Source of the DNA: Deltaproteobacteria bacterium
Lineage (GTDB): Bacteria > Myxococcota > JACPTQ01
Direction: 5' to 3'
DNA: 64,000 nt
Assembly (NCBI GenBank): GCA_016192705.1
Contig: JACPTQ010000057.1
Span: forward strand, 36,461-100,460
Of this stretch, positions 28,659 through 53,481 are shown piece after piece; position 1 is the stretch's first letter, and each line of letters opens with the position of its first letter. A model generated the notes under the pieces. It was not told where the DNA came from. It searched no databases and worked only from the letters and a program-made list of their open reading frames with translations. The translations under genes and the position numbers were made by a program.

Positions 28659-29726
28659 TTAGCGAGTCCGCCGCCCATCAAAGAGGGCGACCAAATGATC
28701 GAGAGCAACTGTGGTCGAGAGCGAAATCTCCGAAAACCGGTTGATAAACGGCGTGTAGTACGTGCCGTCCGTCGCGAGCTGCGGGTTGAACGTCGAGATC
28801 CCGAGCGCCAGCGAAAACGACGGATGGAAGTCGTACGAAAGTTCGATGCCGTAAAGCATCGACGCGCGGTGCGAGACATCGTTGCCGTTCGTGCCGACCG
28901 CGACCGTGGCTCCACCGGAGAGTGTCGCGGTGGCCGGCGTCAAGTCGTAAAGGAACGAGTTGTAAACTGCGACAAGGAGCCCGAGTTTCAGCTTCGAGCC
29001 GAGCGAAAGATCCGCGGTGAACGCGTTTGAAATCGCGTGGCTCGGATTCCGAACGCCTGTGTGCAGGTACTGCGCACAATCGCCGCCCGCCGCGCCGCAG
29101 TTCGCAATCGTCGGCGATTCGTACTGCACCGTCGTGTATTTGTTGAGGCTCTTGGTGTAGCGAAACGCGTAACCCAAATCGAGCTCAACGGCCTTGCCGA
29201 ACTTGATGTTCCGCCCAATCGTGAGCCCCGGGCTCACACCCATATATAAGGAGCGCGCTTGCGACGCCTTGCTCGTTGGGAGCACGAAGCGAATCGACGG
29301 CGTGAACGTGAGCCCCGTCGCCTTCTCTTTGATCGCGCCATAAACCGCGTCGAACTGAATGTCGGCGAGCTGCGGCTCTCGGTACGTGTTCGTGTCGTCG
29401 GAGTCCGTCATTTCGACCGCGAGGTCGACCTTGAGGCGCAGCGAAAACTTATCGGCGAGGTAAAGCCGCGGCGAGAATCGGAAGAGCCAGTTGTAATTCG
29501 GGTTGTACGTCGGCTCGGCGCCCTGATTCAGCGACGTCACCGAGAGCCCGTGCGACCACGCGACCGTCGATCCCCGAAACGCGTACCCTTTAACAAGGTC
29601 TTCGGCCGTAACCGCTTTTTTCTTTGCCGTGGCCGCTGCGCCCGCTCCCGCAGCCGTATCCTCACCGGCAACTGCCGCTGGAATCGAGAGTCCCCACAGC
29701 GCCGTGGCAACCAAGAAGTGTTTCAT
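28659..29726 (-). CDS. Outer-membrane beta-barrel protein of unknown function
   Basis: This 355-aa protein has a signal peptide (MKHFLVATALWGLSIPAAVA). Many alternating amphipathic strands follow (FSPRLYLADKFSLRLKVDLAVEM; AVELDLGYAFRYTKSL; GIELSYDFHPSFSLALGIST) with Gly/aromatic turns. It resembles transporter- or porin-like barrels but no family is certain. A GAGGGA ribosome site precedes the ATG. It is the first gene of a two-gene operon with the giant metalloprotease and could anchor or export it. Confidence 0.72.
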   Translation of the reverse strand: MKHFLVATALWGLSIPAAVAGEDTAAGAGAAATAKKKAVTAEDLVKGYAFRGSTVAWSHGLSVTSLNQGAEPTYNPNYNWLFRFSPRLYLADKFSLRLKVDLAVEMTDSDDTNTYREPQLADIQFDAVYGAIKEKATGLTFTPSIRFVLPTSKASQARSLYMGVSPGLTIGRNIKFGKAVELDLGYAFRYTKSLNKYTTVQYESPTIANCGAAGGDCAQYLHTGVRNPSHAISNAFTADLSLGSKLKLGLLVAVYNSFLYDLTPATATLSGGATVAVGTNGNDVSHRASMLYGIELSYDFHPSFSLALGISTFNPQLATDGTYYTPFINRFSEISLSTTVALDHLVALFDGRRTR

Positions 29727-30067
29727 CGCATTCCCTCGCCGCCCATCAGAAAATGGGGTCTTTTGACCCCAAGAATTGGTGGGGTCGCGCTCTGCAAGCA
29801 GGCGCTCCCCATTTTCGCCACGCGCTTAGCCCACTGGGCTTCGCACCAATGTGGCGAAAATGAGCCCGCCAGATTGCCAGAACGACGCGAAGTCGTCAAT
29901 AGCAACACTCGCCACACCGAATCGTTAGGAAACGCACAGTTCATTGGGCCTGCGAATCCTCCATTCCCAGCACGGGACCAGCTAATTGAGCCCCAGCCAC
30001 GCCCCTTGTGGTCAAATGTGAGCAAACTTCGCACCAGAACCAATCAGCTGCCGGTGCCTTGCGATGG
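29727..30067. other. Divergent intergenic region with nested hairpins
   Basis: No gene is seen here. A hairpin GGGGTC-TTTT-GACCCC lies at 29755-29770, and a larger nested structure at 29810-29862 (listed separately). From about 29877 to 30067 only short hairpin-like runs occur. The stretch should hold the promoters of the barrel/metalloprotease operon and of the toxin-antitoxin pair. Confidence 0.5.
29810..29862. repeat. Nested inverted repeat
   Basis: CATTTTCGCCAC (29810-29821) pairs perfectly with GTGGCGAAAATG (29851-29862). The 29-base loop contains a second small stem, AGCCC-ACT-GGGCT. It may be a transcription terminator, a REP-like unit or a relic of a mobile element. Confidence 0.55.
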
Positions 30068-47301: not shown

Positions 47302-48885
47302 CTACCGCTGCGACTCCCACTCTTTGAGCACGCGTGGCACCTCATCAATCAGATCGCTTGCGACGAGTCCCCTCTCACCAACGCGAGCCGCCGCCCGATC
47401 GCCGGCTTCCCCATGCAAATAAACCGCCGTGCGCGCGGCTTGACCCGCTTCGATTCCTTGCGCGATGAGAGCCGTCAAAACGCCGCAAAGCACGTCGCCC
47501 GTTCCGCCCGTTGCCATCCCAGGATTCCCCGTTGGGTTCACCCACACGCGGCCATCGGGCGCGGCAACCACGGAACGCGCGCCTTTCAGCACGACGTGCG
47601 CACGAACATCGGCCGCAAACTTTTGCGCGACGCCGATTCGATCGCGGGCAATCTCGGCTGTGCGAAGCCCCGTCAACCGCGCCATTTCGCCCGGATGCGG
47701 CGTTAGGACGCGCGGTCCTTTCGCGCAGCGAATTGCGTCGACGTTCCCCACGAGAAGGTTCAGGCCATCCGCATCGATGACAACCGGGAGCGGAATTTCA
47801 GCCGCAACGCGACGCACGACGAGGGCCATCCCGGAACTCGTCGGGATGCCCGGCCCAATCGCGAGCACGCGTTTCCCTTCGCAAAGTTCGACGAGCCGCG
47901 CAAACACGCGCTCCGCGCTCGACGCATCGTTACATTCCGTCAGCGTCGCGCACATCGTCTCGACCGCGCTCGTCGCGACGATGCGCACGGCTTCAAGGTC
48001 CGTCGCGAGCGTCACCAGCCCCGCGCCCGACCGCATCGCGGCGTTGCAGCAAAGAATCGCCGCGCCCGTTTTCCCGAGTGAGCCAGCGACAACAAGCGCG
48101 TGCCCATAAGCCCCTTTGTTTGTGTCGCGATCGCGTCGTCCGATCGGCGCCGCCGCATCGGCAAGCGTCAAAGAATGCGCCTTAATCGCGTCGGATTCGA
48201 GCAGCGCGCGTGGGATTCCGATGTCCGCGACCACCAGCTCGCCAACAAACTCTGCGCCCGGGTACAAAAGAAGCCCGCGCTTCGGCAGCCCCATCGTCAC
48301 CGTCACGTCGGCCCGCACGGTCGCGCCCTGCGGTTGCCCAGTGTCGGCGTCGAGCCCGGACGGCACATCAACGGCCAGCCGCTTCGCGCCGAGTGCGTTC
48401 AAAAGGTCGATCGTCGTTAGATGCGCACCTTCAACGTCGCGCGTGAGACCCGTCCCAAAAATCGCATCGACAACAACGTCGGCGGTTCGAAGCCACGCCT
48501 CGTGTGGCGTCACGTCGCCATTCGACGCGTCAATGACGGAGACCGCCAACTTCCTGAGCGCGTCGAATTCAAGTCGGCTGTCGCTTCCAACCGCGGGCTC
48601 TTTCGAAACCCGAAAAACAGTCACGTCGGCGCCCGCATTCAACAGGTGGCGCGCCGCAGAGTATCCGTCGCCGCCGTTCGCCCCGCCTCCACAGACAACC
48701 GCAACGCGTGGTCGCTTCTTGCGCGCCTCGTCACCAAGTAGCCGCCACACCTCGTCGCCCACGCATTTCCCCGCAAGCTCCATGAGCAAAATCGACGGCA
48801 CGCCAAAGTCGCGCGACGTCGCCTCGTCGATCGCGCGCATCTCGCCGCGCGTAGCAATCTTGTTCCGCGAACCCAACCCGCTCAC
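47302..48885 (-). CDS. nnrD: Bifunctional NAD(P)H-hydrate epimerase / ADP-dependent dehydratase
   Basis: This 527-aa protein fuses two repair enzymes. The YjeF N-terminal epimerase (about 1-215) shows VAVVCGGGANGGDGYSAARHL and VVDAIFGTGLTRDV. The YjeF C-terminal dehydratase, ribokinase-like (about 235-520), shows GHALVVAGSLGKTGAAILC, RVLTPHPGEMARLTG and GMATGGTGDVLCGVLTALIAQG. It converts damaged NAD(P)H hydrates back to NAD(P)H. Its start overlaps the upstream hybrid kinase gene by four bases, an ATGA junction. Confidence 0.95.
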   Translation of the reverse strand: MSGLGSRNKIATRGEMRAIDEATSRDFGVPSILLMELAGKCVGDEVWRLLGDEARKKRPRVAVVCGGGANGGDGYSAARHLLNAGADVTVFRVSKEPAVGSDSRLEFDALRKLAVSVIDASNGDVTPHEAWLRTADVVVDAIFGTGLTRDVEGAHLTTIDLLNALGAKRLAVDVPSGLDADTGQPQGATVRADVTVTMGLPKRGLLLYPGAEFVGELVVADIGIPRALLESDAIKAHSLTLADAAAPIGRRDRDTNKGAYGHALVVAGSLGKTGAAILCCNAAMRSGAGLVTLATDLEAVRIVATSAVETMCATLTECNDASSAERVFARLVELCEGKRVLAIGPGIPTSSGMALVVRRVAAEIPLPVVIDADGLNLLVGNVDAIRCAKGPRVLTPHPGEMARLTGLRTAEIARDRIGVAQKFAADVRAHVVLKGARSVVAAPDGRVWVNPTGNPGMATGGTGDVLCGVLTALIAQGIEAGQAARTAVYLHGEAGDRAAARVGERGLVASDLIDEVPRVLKEWESQR

Positions 48886-51800
48886 GCCGACGCTCCGTCC
48901 CGGGTTCTCAAATGATCGTCAAGAAGTTTTCGAATCTGCTGAACCTCAAGCGGCTTGAAAAACACCCGCGGCCCCATCCGGTCGACGAAGCTGCGCGCCT
49001 CGTCGGTAAACGCGCCACCCGTCAAAAAAAACGTCCGCTCGGCGAGCTTGGGGTAACGCTTCTCGATCGCCGCGTAAAACGCCATCCCCGTGAGGTCGGG
49101 CATCATGAGGTCGCACAAAATAAAATCGGGCGGACGCGCTGTCTCGCCCTCGAGAAGCGACAGCGCTTGCGAACCCGACGCGGCGACGAGAAGATCGTAC
49201 GTCTTCCCGAAAATGCGCGAGAGCAGCTTCAACGTTAATTCTTCGTCGTCGATGATGAGGATGCGGTGCCGCATCGGTGGCGGCGTCGGCGCACTTGTGG
49301 CGGGCGCCTTCAAACGGATGGTCGGCGCTCGGGAAGGCCCGCCCAACGACTCGACCTGAAGCGGCGCGGGCGGGCGCGCTTTCTCGCGCTCTCGACTCTT
49401 CTGCGCATCCTCCGGCGAAACCACCATCTTCCGGTCGGTGCGACTCTGGAGAGGCAGCGCCAGCGTGACGCTCGTCCCCTTGCCCTCCTCGCTCTTAATC
49501 GAAACCTCGCCGCCCGCATTTCGCAAGATTTCATGCACAAGCGTAAGCCCGAGCCCAGTCCCTTCGCCGAGCGGCTTCGTCGTGAAAAACGGCTCCGTTA
49601 CGCGCGCGAGATCGGCGACCGCTATCCCACACCCCGTATCGGATACCCGCACCTTCGCACGGTTGTCATCGACCCACGTCTCGATCGTTACCGCGTTCTT
49701 GCCGGCGCGCCCGGGCTCGATCGCCTGCGCGGCATTCAGGAGCAGATTAACGATCGCCTGTTCGATGTTGCCGGTGACACAGCGCAAGAGCGGCACATCG
49801 CCGAACTTCGTGACGAGCGTCGCGCGATGCGCCACCTCGTTGTGAACGACGGCGACCGCGCGCCGAATCACAAGGTGAAGGTCGCACACCGACGTCTCCT
49901 CGGGCGAGCCCTTCGCAAATCGAAGCAGCGTCCCAACCACATCGCGAATTCGTCGCACACCCTCGAGCGAATCGCCCACGAGCCGCCGCGCCTCAAGCTC
50001 CGTTCCGCCGAGCGCCTCGCCAACGCCAAGGCCTTGCTCGAGATCGGCGAGCCGCGTTCGCGCGCCCGAGTCCGTCACCGCTTCGCGATACGCCCGAAGC
50101 GCGGTCCCAGTCGCGTCGAGCTGCTCTTGCACGAGGTTCAGATTTCCCAGAATAAACATGAGCGGGTTGTTGATCTCGTGTGCGATCCCTGCGGCGAGCT
50201 GCCCAACCGCGGCGAGTTTCTCTCGGTGAATCTCCTCGCTCTGGCGTCGCATGAGCTGCCGATTCGTTTCGTCGAGGTCGTCGTACAACCGCGCGTTGTC
50301 GAGCACAACCGAGACATCGCCCGCGACCGCGCCAAGCACACGCACATCGTCATCAACCGACGTTCCCGTTCGTTGATGCACAAGCGACAACACGCCGAGC
50401 GTGCGACCGCGCATGGCGAGTGGAAAAAGAAGGAGCGTTCCCTTGACATCGCGAAGCGCCGGCTCAATCACGCGACTCGACGACGCGCCCAGCGGAATCT
50501 TGACGGTTTCGCGTGCCTCGATCGCTTCGCGCGCCACATGCTGGGCCAACGGAATCGGCGCGGACGGCTCGATTTTCCACCCGGTTAACCCAACGCCCGC
50601 GCACCATCGAAACATCGACGCCCCGTGGTCCCACGCATCGATGCGCCCCGCAATAATGTCATGCCCATCGACCAGCGCGCGCAGCGCATTTTGCGCCACG
50701 TCACGCACCGACCGCGCCCGAATGAGGCTCGCGATGACGGCCGACCGAACACTGCGCTCGCGCCACAAGCGCCGCAAATGGGTGACGTCTCGCGTCGTGT
50801 CGCGCGAATACGAAAAGGCGCCGTCGCGCCCGGTCGCCGCGGTTGAATTCCAAATCACCTCGCGCCTTGAATCATCGGGACGCACGACCGTGAGGTCGAT
50901 GTTGGCAATCTGTCCCGTGCGCTTGAGGCGCGAAAACGCCTCGTCAAAAATGGGCCGCGACTCTTCGGAGAGAAGATCCCGAAAGGGCTTCCCCAACACA
51001 GCTTCGCGCGGTCGCCCAATCACGTCGAGCGCGGCGAGATTTGCGTCCAGCAGGCGTCCCGCGCCGTCAAGGGATTGGTATGGATCGGGCGCGCGTTCGT
51101 ACAAATCGCTAAAGCGATGCTGCGTTTCGCGATGTTGCTCCTGGTCAAGAGCCGCCGAAACCCATTGCGATATCGTCTCAACGACAGGCCCAATCCGCTC
51201 AACATCCGAATCGATGTAAGCGCCGGATCGCCGCGACGAGACAACCAGAATCCCCAAAAACTCGTCGTCCTTCAAGAGCGGCCAAGCCACGCCCGACCGA
51301 AGACCCGCCGCGTAGGCCGCGGAGAGGGCCGCATCGCCCGCGGCGAAATCAACAAGAGCCCCCCGTCGCGTCGCCGCCAGCTGCCGCGTCAACTCTGCCG
51401 AGGCCGGGGTCTTGCCCGTCCAATTGTCGAGCTCGGCAACGGCGACGCCCTCAACGTACGCAACACGAAAAAGGTCCACCGCTCGATCTTTCGTGATGAC
51501 GCCGAACCGCTCAAACGAGATCAGACGACGAAGGGCCGCCGCGACCGCCCGATACTTTTCTTGGGCGGGGCCAGGCGACACAAGGACTTTTGCAACGTCG
51601 TCGCGAACGCCATGATTCGCGTGTGCATAGCGCGTCGACAGGGCATGCGCGAAAATCTCAGCCAATGCGCGAACAAGCCGAACGCATCCGTCGCCGGGTC
51701 GATCGCGAAAAAACGCGCCGAACCACGCGGGAGCGCCATCACCTTGACACGGAATCGCGACGGCCCTGACAGAGCCGTGCGCGCGAAGCGATTCTGGGAA

Positions 51801-52097
51801 GTCACTTTGCGCCGCGAGATCAAGCGACGCCTCGCCTTCGTATTGTCGCCAGAATGCGTCGTCCAACCGCGCGGCATCGAAAGACTCGCTCGGCTCGGCC
51901 AAAAGTGAATGGAGCACACGCGCGCCCGCCGCGGGATCTCGGCGACAGACAACGAGATCCACAGCACCCAAGAATTCAGCCACCGCGCGCGCGCGGGCAG
52001 CGAGCAAGGGTGACGCATCACACGAATCGGCGATCGCGGCAGCAAAGGCCGCGATCCGCGACGCCGCGTCGAGGGCCGGCCTCATGTCGCCGCTCAT
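48882..52097 (-). CDS. Hybrid sensor histidine kinase with GAF, PAS and receiver domains
   Basis: This 1071-aa cytoplasmic protein has GAF-like domains in its first 310 residues, a PAS domain (about 330-450, RFSDLYERAPDPYQSLDGAGRLLDANLAAL) and another GAF (about 465-620). HisKA ([16 protein letters not shown], His near 650) and HATPase (NLLLNAAQAI, VSDTGCGI, GEGTGLGLTL) follow. After a Pro-rich linker the C-terminal receiver (about 945-1065) has DDEELTLKLLSRI and the acceptor Asp in FILCDLMMPDLTG. It leads an operon with NnrDE, TsaE and the VWA membrane protein. The signal is unknown. Confidence 0.94.
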   Translation of the reverse strand: MSGDMRPALDAASRIAAFAAAIADSCDASPLLAARARAVAEFLGAVDLVVCRRDPAAGARVLHSLLAEPSESFDAARLDDAFWRQYEGEASLDLAAQSDFPESLRAHGSVRAVAIPCQGDGAPAWFGAFFRDRPGDGCVRLVRALAEIFAHALSTRYAHANHGVRDDVAKVLVSPGPAQEKYRAVAAALRRLISFERFGVITKDRAVDLFRVAYVEGVAVAELDNWTGKTPASAELTRQLAATRRGALVDFAAGDAALSAAYAAGLRSGVAWPLLKDDEFLGILVVSSRRSGAYIDSDVERIGPVVETISQWVSAALDQEQHRETQHRFSDLYERAPDPYQSLDGAGRLLDANLAALDVIGRPREAVLGKPFRDLLSEESRPIFDEAFSRLKRTGQIANIDLTVVRPDDSRREVIWNSTAATGRDGAFSYSRDTTRDVTHLRRLWRERSVRSAVIASLIRARSVRDVAQNALRALVDGHDIIAGRIDAWDHGASMFRWCAGVGLTGWKIEPSAPIPLAQHVAREAIEARETVKIPLGASSSRVIEPALRDVKGTLLLFPLAMRGRTLGVLSLVHQRTGTSVDDDVRVLGAVAGDVSVVLDNARLYDDLDETNRQLMRRQSEEIHREKLAAVGQLAAGIAHEINNPLMFILGNLNLVQEQLDATGTALRAYREAVTDSGARTRLADLEQGLGVGEALGGTELEARRLVGDSLEGVRRIRDVVGTLLRFAKGSPEETSVCDLHLVIRRAVAVVHNEVAHRATLVTKFGDVPLLRCVTGNIEQAIVNLLLNAAQAIEPGRAGKNAVTIETWVDDNRAKVRVSDTGCGIAVADLARVTEPFFTTKPLGEGTGLGLTLVHEILRNAGGEVSIKSEEGKGTSVTLALPLQSRTDRKMVVSPEDAQKSREREKARPPAPLQVESLGGPSRAPTIRLKAPATSAPTPPPMRHRILIIDDEELTLKLLSRIFGKTYDLLVAASGSQALSLLEGETARPPDFILCDLMMPDLTGMAFYAAIEKRYPKLAERTFFLTGGAFTDEARSFVDRMGPRVFFKPLEVQQIRKLLDDHLRTRDGASA

Positions 52098-52743
52098 CGC
52101 CCATGACTATAGCACTCAGACGCACGAGTGGAAGACCCTGATTCCCGGATAACGGGCAAGATTAGCGTGGGACGGGCGGGGTCTGGGCTTGCTCCGGCTC
52201 GCGGAAGTCCTCGGGTCTGACATGAAATGTGAGTATGCGCGAAATGAATCAAACATCACGATAACGGCAATCCCACGCCCCATCGGCACCTCATCCCCTG
52301 CGGACGCGAGCCTCCGCTTGCCCAGACCCCGCCCATCCAACCAGAAACCAGCCGTTTCCCTGGAACGGCGGTTGAGAGACTTGGGCGTCGATCGAACGCT
52401 GGCCGACACCCAACGGGTGAACCCTTCGTACCGCCCTCAAACCTAAAGAATACGTCCCCGGAAAGCGGTCCGCTCGGAATTGCGTAGGGTCGGCAGGGGC
52501 CCGCAAAGGCGCGCATCCGCAGGGTCTGCAGCGCGATATCGGCTGGGATCGGCGGCTTTCGCTTGCCTCTGAACAGCGGCTCTGTCGCGCGAGTCAGTTC
52601 AGACCCGAGGACGTCGGCGCGCCGAAGCGGCACCTGCCGACCCAACGCACAGACGCAAACTGGCCGCTTATCCGGGGATCGAGGTGGAAGAGCGGGGCAG
52701 AGCGCAGCTTTAGCCGGCGCGGCTCGCGTGTTACCGTGACGCC
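52098..52743. other. Non-coding divergent region rich in inverted repeats
   Basis: No convincing gene is present; small open frames lack ribosome sites and family features. Most of the stretch (52140-52680) is an inverted-repeat-bounded structure listed separately. The flanks should contain the promoters of the hybrid kinase operon (leftward) and the CinA-like gene (rightward). Confidence 0.6.
52140..52680. repeat. 541-bp inverted-repeat element or structured RNA
   Basis: GATTCCCGGATAA (52140-52152) mirrors 52668-52680 with one mismatch. GTCCTCGGGTCTGA (52207-52220) mirrors 52599-52612 perfectly, and the spacing between the two blocks is 54 and 55 bases at the two ends. Internal pairs are 52174-52188 with 52320-52334 (15 bp perfect), 52481-52501 with 52629-52649 (19 of 21) and a hairpin 52381-52390/52404-52413. 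On the minus strand the hairpin's one mismatch becomes G-U. Some pairs cross, so not all can form together. No transposase is present. Confidence 0.6.
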
Positions 52744-53481
52744 ATGTCCGCACGAACACCAACCGCCGCCATCGTCATCATCGGCAACGAAATCCTCTCG
52801 GGCAAAACGCAAGACACGAACGGCCCGTACCTTATCGGCGAGCTCAAGGCGCTGGGCGTCGACCTTCGTGAAATCGCGGTTGTCCCGGACATCCACGAAA
52901 CGATCGCCGAGACGGTCACTCGGCTCGCGGCAAAGGTCGACTTCGTCTTCACATCGGGTGGCGTCGGCCCGACGCACGATGACATCACGATTGAGGCGGT
53001 CGCGCGCGCGTTCGGTCGCCGCATCGTACGCGAACCGTCGCTCGAAAAGGCGCTCCGCTGGTTTTACCAGGACCACCTGACCGACGCGCACCTTCGCATG
53101 GCCGACGTCCCGGAGGGCGCCGAGCTCGTTTATGACGACGGCATCAAAATTCCGACGCTTCGCCTCGAAAACGTTTACGTCTTGCCCGGCATCCCCGAAC
53201 TCTGCCGAATGAAATTCGCGACGGTGCGCGAGCGGTTCCGCGCCCTACCGTTTCACTTGCGGCAAATCTTCGTCGACGCTGACGAGGGGCTCATCGCCGA
53301 CGCCATGACGCGCGCGCAGGCGGCGCACCCGAGCGTCGCGATCGGGTCGTACCCGCGACTTTCAAACGCCGAATACCGCGTGAAGGTCACTCTCGAGTCG
53401 AAAGACAAGGGCGAAGTTGACGTGGTTTGCGACGAGCTGGTTCGCGCGTTCGGCGCGGAAAAGATCGTTCGCGTCGAGTAA
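52744..53481 (+). CDS. CinA-like MoCF-domain protein
   Basis: This 245-aa protein has the molybdopterin-binding (MoCF) fold of CinA: AIVIIGNEILSGKTQDTNGPYLIGELKALGVDL, VPDIHETIAETV and VFTSGGVGPTHDDITIEAVARAFG. YVLPGIPELCRMKFATV follows. The C-terminal amidase domain of full CinA is absent, as in many stand-alone members. CinA relatives act in pyridine-nucleotide repair (ADP-ribose pyrophosphatase). The opposite gene is convergent, ten bases away. Confidence 0.92.
   Translation: MSARTPTAAIVIIGNEILSGKTQDTNGPYLIGELKALGVDLREIAVVPDIHETIAETVTRLAAKVDFVFTSGGVGPTHDDITIEAVARAFGRRIVREPSLEKALRWFYQDHLTDAHLRMADVPEGAELVYDDGIKIPTLRLENVYVLPGIPELCRMKFATVRERFRALPFHLRQIFVDADEGLIADAMTRAQAAHPSVAIGSYPRLSNAEYRVKVTLESKDKGEVDVVCDELVRAFGAEKIVRVE

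Follow-up and report, generated by a model that had tools for sequence, protein, structure and literature searches.

In the window (the whole 64,000-nucleotide stretch analysed here), the gap between two divergent genes is occupied by a gene-less, repetitive element. The flanking genes, named by reading their translations, are histidine-kinase-like (48882-52097, minus strand) and MoaB/CinA-like (52744-53481, plus strand). The open reading frames that cross the element are all short and none is gene-like, as the first-pass annotation had also found. That annotation placed an inverted-repeat structure of 541 bp at 52140-52680; the structure stands, but its limits were clipped by about 4 bp at each end, because alignment of the copies and a perfect 8-bp duplication set the outer ends at 52136 and 52683/52684. 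The following features were delineated (positions in the window).

52128..52135, no strand: 5' target-site duplication GTGGAAGA, in perfect 8-bp identity with 52684-52691
52136..52684, plus strand: MITE-like element, 548-549 bp, its final G common to the 3' duplication; boundaries the same in 78 complete copies
52136..52155, plus strand: left terminal inverted repeat CCCTGATTCCCGGATAACGG, from genome pattern matches
52167..52203, plus strand: left hairpin, 5' arm; inverted repeat, covariation
52204..52222, plus strand: near-invariant subterminal block GAAGTCCTCGGGTCTGACA, with a mirror counterpart near the right end; columns mostly invariant among 34 copies
52302..52303, no strand: left module site (query position 163), empty here; a hairpin module of ~90 or ~164 bp in other copies
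52305..52341, plus strand: left hairpin, 3' arm; inverted repeat, covariation
52481..52515, plus strand: right hairpin, 5' arm; inverted-repeat core, extended pairing
52514..52518, no strand: right module site (query position 379), mirror of the left one, empty in the window copy
52599..52612, minus strand: mirror copy of the subterminal block (TCAGACCCGAGGAC on the plus strand); inverted repeat, near-invariant columns
52616..52649, plus strand: right hairpin, 3' arm; inverted repeat, extended pairing, covariation
52664..52684, minus strand: right terminal inverted repeat CCTCGATCCCCGGATAAGCGG (as read on the minus strand), from genome pattern matches
52684..52691, no strand: 3' target-site duplication GTGGAAGA, in perfect 8-bp identity with 52128-52135

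Copies, insertion sites and derivatives in the host genome

The host genome is a draft of 5,210,217 bases in 88 contigs, estimated to be 96.65% complete. A DNA search of this genome yielded 40 scored copies, mostly full length, with identities of 81-94% (the window copy itself excluded). A 30-mer from the core of the element occurs at least 111 times at up to 3 mismatches, on dozens of contigs, and its reversed control does not occur at all. Likewise, the left terminal repeat has 171 genome matches at up to 3 mismatches, including a single one within the window, at 52136..52155, and the right terminal repeat has 96 at up to 2 mismatches, against 0 for either control pattern. We fetched 151 stretches around core or end sites and, by pairing their ends, obtained 78 complete copies of 116-888 bp, of which 37 fall between 530 and 566 bp, with further length classes near 640, 711 and 803 bp. 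Contigs terminate within a copy at 70 or more of their 176 ends, so that the assembly breaks largely at the element, which accounts for a good part of the genome fragmentation. At one locus (G000 C9:129122-132077, L027), three copies lie within 3 kb, and two copies (L087 and L097) have a common, unrelated interior of 200 bp, rich in CGACGA-type triplets, at query positions 153-446.

The copies that the first-pass annotation proposed to look for elsewhere and in relatives are thus abundant in the genome itself but were found in none of 194 other genomes of the phylum, a collection in which the host genome alone represents its class and from which the same or very near genomes are possibly missing. 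Neither GTDB contigs nor viral contigs contained the core pattern, and blastn against plasmids and phages gave no match to the element.

Target-site duplications, identified with flexible ends and a fixed threshold, flank 62 of the 78 complete copies, the other 16 having none at the same threshold; when flanks were re-paired at random in 200 trials, the mean was 0.3 and the maximum 3. With the ends held fixed, the duplications most often measure 8 bp (24 copies) or 9 bp (20 copies), less often 7 bp (7) or 10 bp (4), and a few are longer. Only 3 of the 78 insertion points are coding-like, compared to 309 of 500 random window positions, as called by a codon-usage score trained on the genes of the window. 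Together, the duplications and the insertion points indicate that the copies were inserted into non-coding DNA by a transposase whose cuts are staggered.

Two copies at unlinked sites (C74_2764 and C14_74213) have a common internal deletion junction and a separate duplication each. A deleted form has thus transposed a second time, which is evidence for an enzyme that acts in trans. Three partial or complete copies have in common a deletion near query positions 117/252. Profiles PF01609, PF12762 and PF01797 (Y1_Tnp) had no matches in the draft genome, which breaks at repeats, and none of the 78 end pairs encloses an autonomous parent with the same ends.

Palindromic build and covarying hairpins

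The whole element is built as an inverted duplication. Its left half aligns to the inverted right half at 164 of 260 positions (63% identity), with a score of 26 compared to a maximum of -18.5 for shuffled sequences. Five inverted repeats were identified: 52135-52163/52657-52685 (76%), 52167-52203/52305-52341 (81%), 52191-52225/52594-52628 (83%), 52296-52323/52497-52524 (79%) and 52481-52501/52629-52649 (90%). Folding is far better than that of shuffles, with z-scores of -7.0 for RNA of the plus strand, -6.3 for RNA of the minus strand and -5.9 for DNA. The ordered structure noticed at first sight is therefore real, and the two conserved end blocks, described as inverted at matching spacing, are indeed about equally spaced.

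Among 34 aligned copies, the left and right hairpins jointly show changes on both sides of 12 pairs (31 cells), compared to 5.1 pairs and 11.6 cells in shuffles, none of 500 of which reached the observed values, and to 3-4 pairs and 3-4 cells when the pairing was slid; the cells are not independent events, given that one pair contributes 12 of the 31. The compensatory changes foreseen by the first-pass annotation thus do occur among the copies, and their presence in both hairpins makes a conserved fold of the two, as DNA or RNA, likely. Repair between the arms of the palindrome could be another source of the paired changes.

Each half being an inverted copy of the other, an arm has a second possible partner in its mirror arm, and this is why the repeats cross. 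These mirror pairings, which include the subterminal blocks, show no excess of covariation (6 pairs compared to 3.5, with 209 of 500 shuffles scoring at least as high), and they contain near-invariant blocks. The long crossing repeats reported at first are accordingly present, but their pairing as a long-range fold, end with end and the middle arms together, was dropped, its covariation being that of shuffles. The invariant subterminal blocks are candidate binding sites for a protein, presumably the transposase.

Hairpin modules nested in the element

An extra hairpin module is present in 23 of the 78 complete copies, at one of two mirror-image points and in mirror orientation; both sites are filled in only one complete copy. 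The module is 88 bp long and shows compensatory changes in 20 of its 29 pairs (85 cells compared to 23 in shuffles). It represents a repeat family distinct from the element, with a GTAG-like end and with many copies that stand alone in the host genome, where a covariance model gave at least 146 matches with 150 of 5988 first-look candidates scored (for example, loci L160, L161, L163, L164, L165 and L168). The module hairpin loci had no match in Rfam, and the exact module core was absent from GTDB contigs.

The window itself carries a two-hairpin 88-bp module copy at 29777-29863 on the minus strand (E-value 3.5e-10), about 50 bp upstream of the open reading frame 28659-29726 of the same strand. 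At four loci (L168, L043, L107 and L119), one module lies within the apical loop of another, and in L043 this nesting reaches three levels. Solo modules also adjoin genes for tRNA-Met, tRNA-Thr and tRNA-Arg (L162, L166 and L167), and the one at tRNA-Arg lies between the copies of an 80-bp direct duplication, in which part of the tRNA gene is included.

When mapped on a tree of 54 copies, the right module changes state 11 times, as frequently as with shuffled labels, although exchange between copies by recombination may obscure the branching. An ancestral long form, with both modules present first and lost later, is weakened by this result and by the single two-module copy. Tentatively, and with the odds against it, the modules themselves might be mobile, guided by structure and inserting repeatedly at one precise point (their own apical loop, or the mirror sites of the element) via an enzyme other than Y1/RAYT, in which case the palindromic element would be a landing platform that spreads them.

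Interpretation and comparison with known systems

The first-pass annotation left the choice between a non-autonomous transposable element and a large structured RNA. The terminal inverted repeats, the duplications at 62 of 78 copies and the genome-wide dispersal bear out the former, and the best explanation, to which we assign a probability of about 0.93, is a MITE-like non-autonomous DNA transposon moved in trans by a transposase. Under the proposed mechanism, the gene-less element would depend on a transposase supplied in trans, predicted to be of the cut-and-paste DDE type with staggered cuts of 8-9 bp, that would recognise the ends of about 20 bp (CCCTGATTCCCGGWTAACGG / CCCCRATCCCCGGWTAAGCGG) and probably also the invariant subterminal blocks; the element would be inserted into non-coding DNA and the target duplicated. 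The covarying hairpins might be kept because an extruded or single-stranded state plays a role for the element.

That the locus instead belongs to a family of large, structured regulatory RNAs that are transcribed and act at many loci, and are repeated only incidentally, we regard as very improbable. The strong folding (z of -6 to -7) and the compensatory changes in two hairpins are what such a family would show, and in the right hairpin alone, single changes to G-T outnumber those to A-C (30 vs 14). However, the left hairpin has 21 and 27, respectively, and the total of 51 G-T vs 41 A-C favours neither strand clearly, giving no clear sign of a strand-selected RNA. The additional G-U pair on the minus strand, at first taken as a hint of transcription, is a single pair and carries no weight. 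Furthermore, the exact ends and the target-site duplications argue against an RNA family, no promoter-like site was found, and the Rfam covariance search of the element gave a best E-value of 0.23 at 23 bits, far below the gathering threshold of 168.

High copy number, non-coding location and hairpins would also be expected of a REP/BIME-like palindromic repeat moved on single-stranded DNA by a RAYT-type tyrosine transposase, and the 88-bp hairpin family with GTAG-like ends, many of its members solo, resides both in the same genome and inside the element. Yet the 549-bp element makes target duplications of 8-9 bp, which a RAYT-type mechanism is not known to make, and a Y1_Tnp (PF01797) gene is absent from the draft genome (96.65% complete). 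Given also that REPs span 20-40 bp (PMC3733652), we consider this origin extremely improbable for the element as a whole.

The preferred reading, a MITE-like transposon, would add to the MITEs a large family, GC-rich and built as an inverted duplication, from a lineage alone in its class in the collection. Moreover, a small covarying hairpin repeat that occupies fixed mirror sites of a transposon amounts to a two-level system, which would allow one to ask how hairpin repeats spread without a known enzyme. Described MITEs are usually AT-rich, and the GC content of the element, 63.6% (62.6% in the window), counts against the assignment. In its favour, following the definition used for MITEs (PMC6382973, PMC3049150), the element has fixed terminal inverted repeats, duplications of consistent length, a short body lacking a transposase and many dispersed copies, the complete ones measuring 116-888 bp compared to the size criterion of about 50-600 bp. 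Among the MITEs described in Acinetobacter, MITEAba12 is 113 bp long with a 9-bp target-site duplication, and others are 439 and 502 bp (PMC6382973). The present element resembles them in being short and gene-less, with imperfect terminal inverted repeats, target duplications and presumed movement in trans, but differs in its ends, its GC richness and its overall build, an inverted duplication with hairpin halves, and in that its parent was not found.

Several other repeat families share part of this architecture. ERIC/IRU is a 127-bp palindromic intergenic element that may bear additional hairpin segments at set positions. Both it and the present element would thus be palindromic with internal hairpin segments, but its sequence and size appear to differ. 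Related enterobacterial units have been described (PMC2759123). The nearest modular analogue is the pneumococcal BOX element, which is modular, 67-637 bp long and highly base-paired, with optional internal modules (PMC3049150); whereas BOX carries tandem boxB units in one place, the modules here lie at two sites that mirror each other, with their orientation mirrored as well, and are mutually nested. The GTAG/CGTC-tagged REP families, of which the GTAG type is often accompanied by a RAYT gene (PMC3733652), are comparable to the 88-bp module only and not to the whole element, and even the module exceeds the REP length and occurs in a genome in which no Y1 transposase was found. Thus, the element is of a known general kind, a jumping element, and what is distinctive is its all-palindromic build, with smaller hairpin repeats lodged inside.
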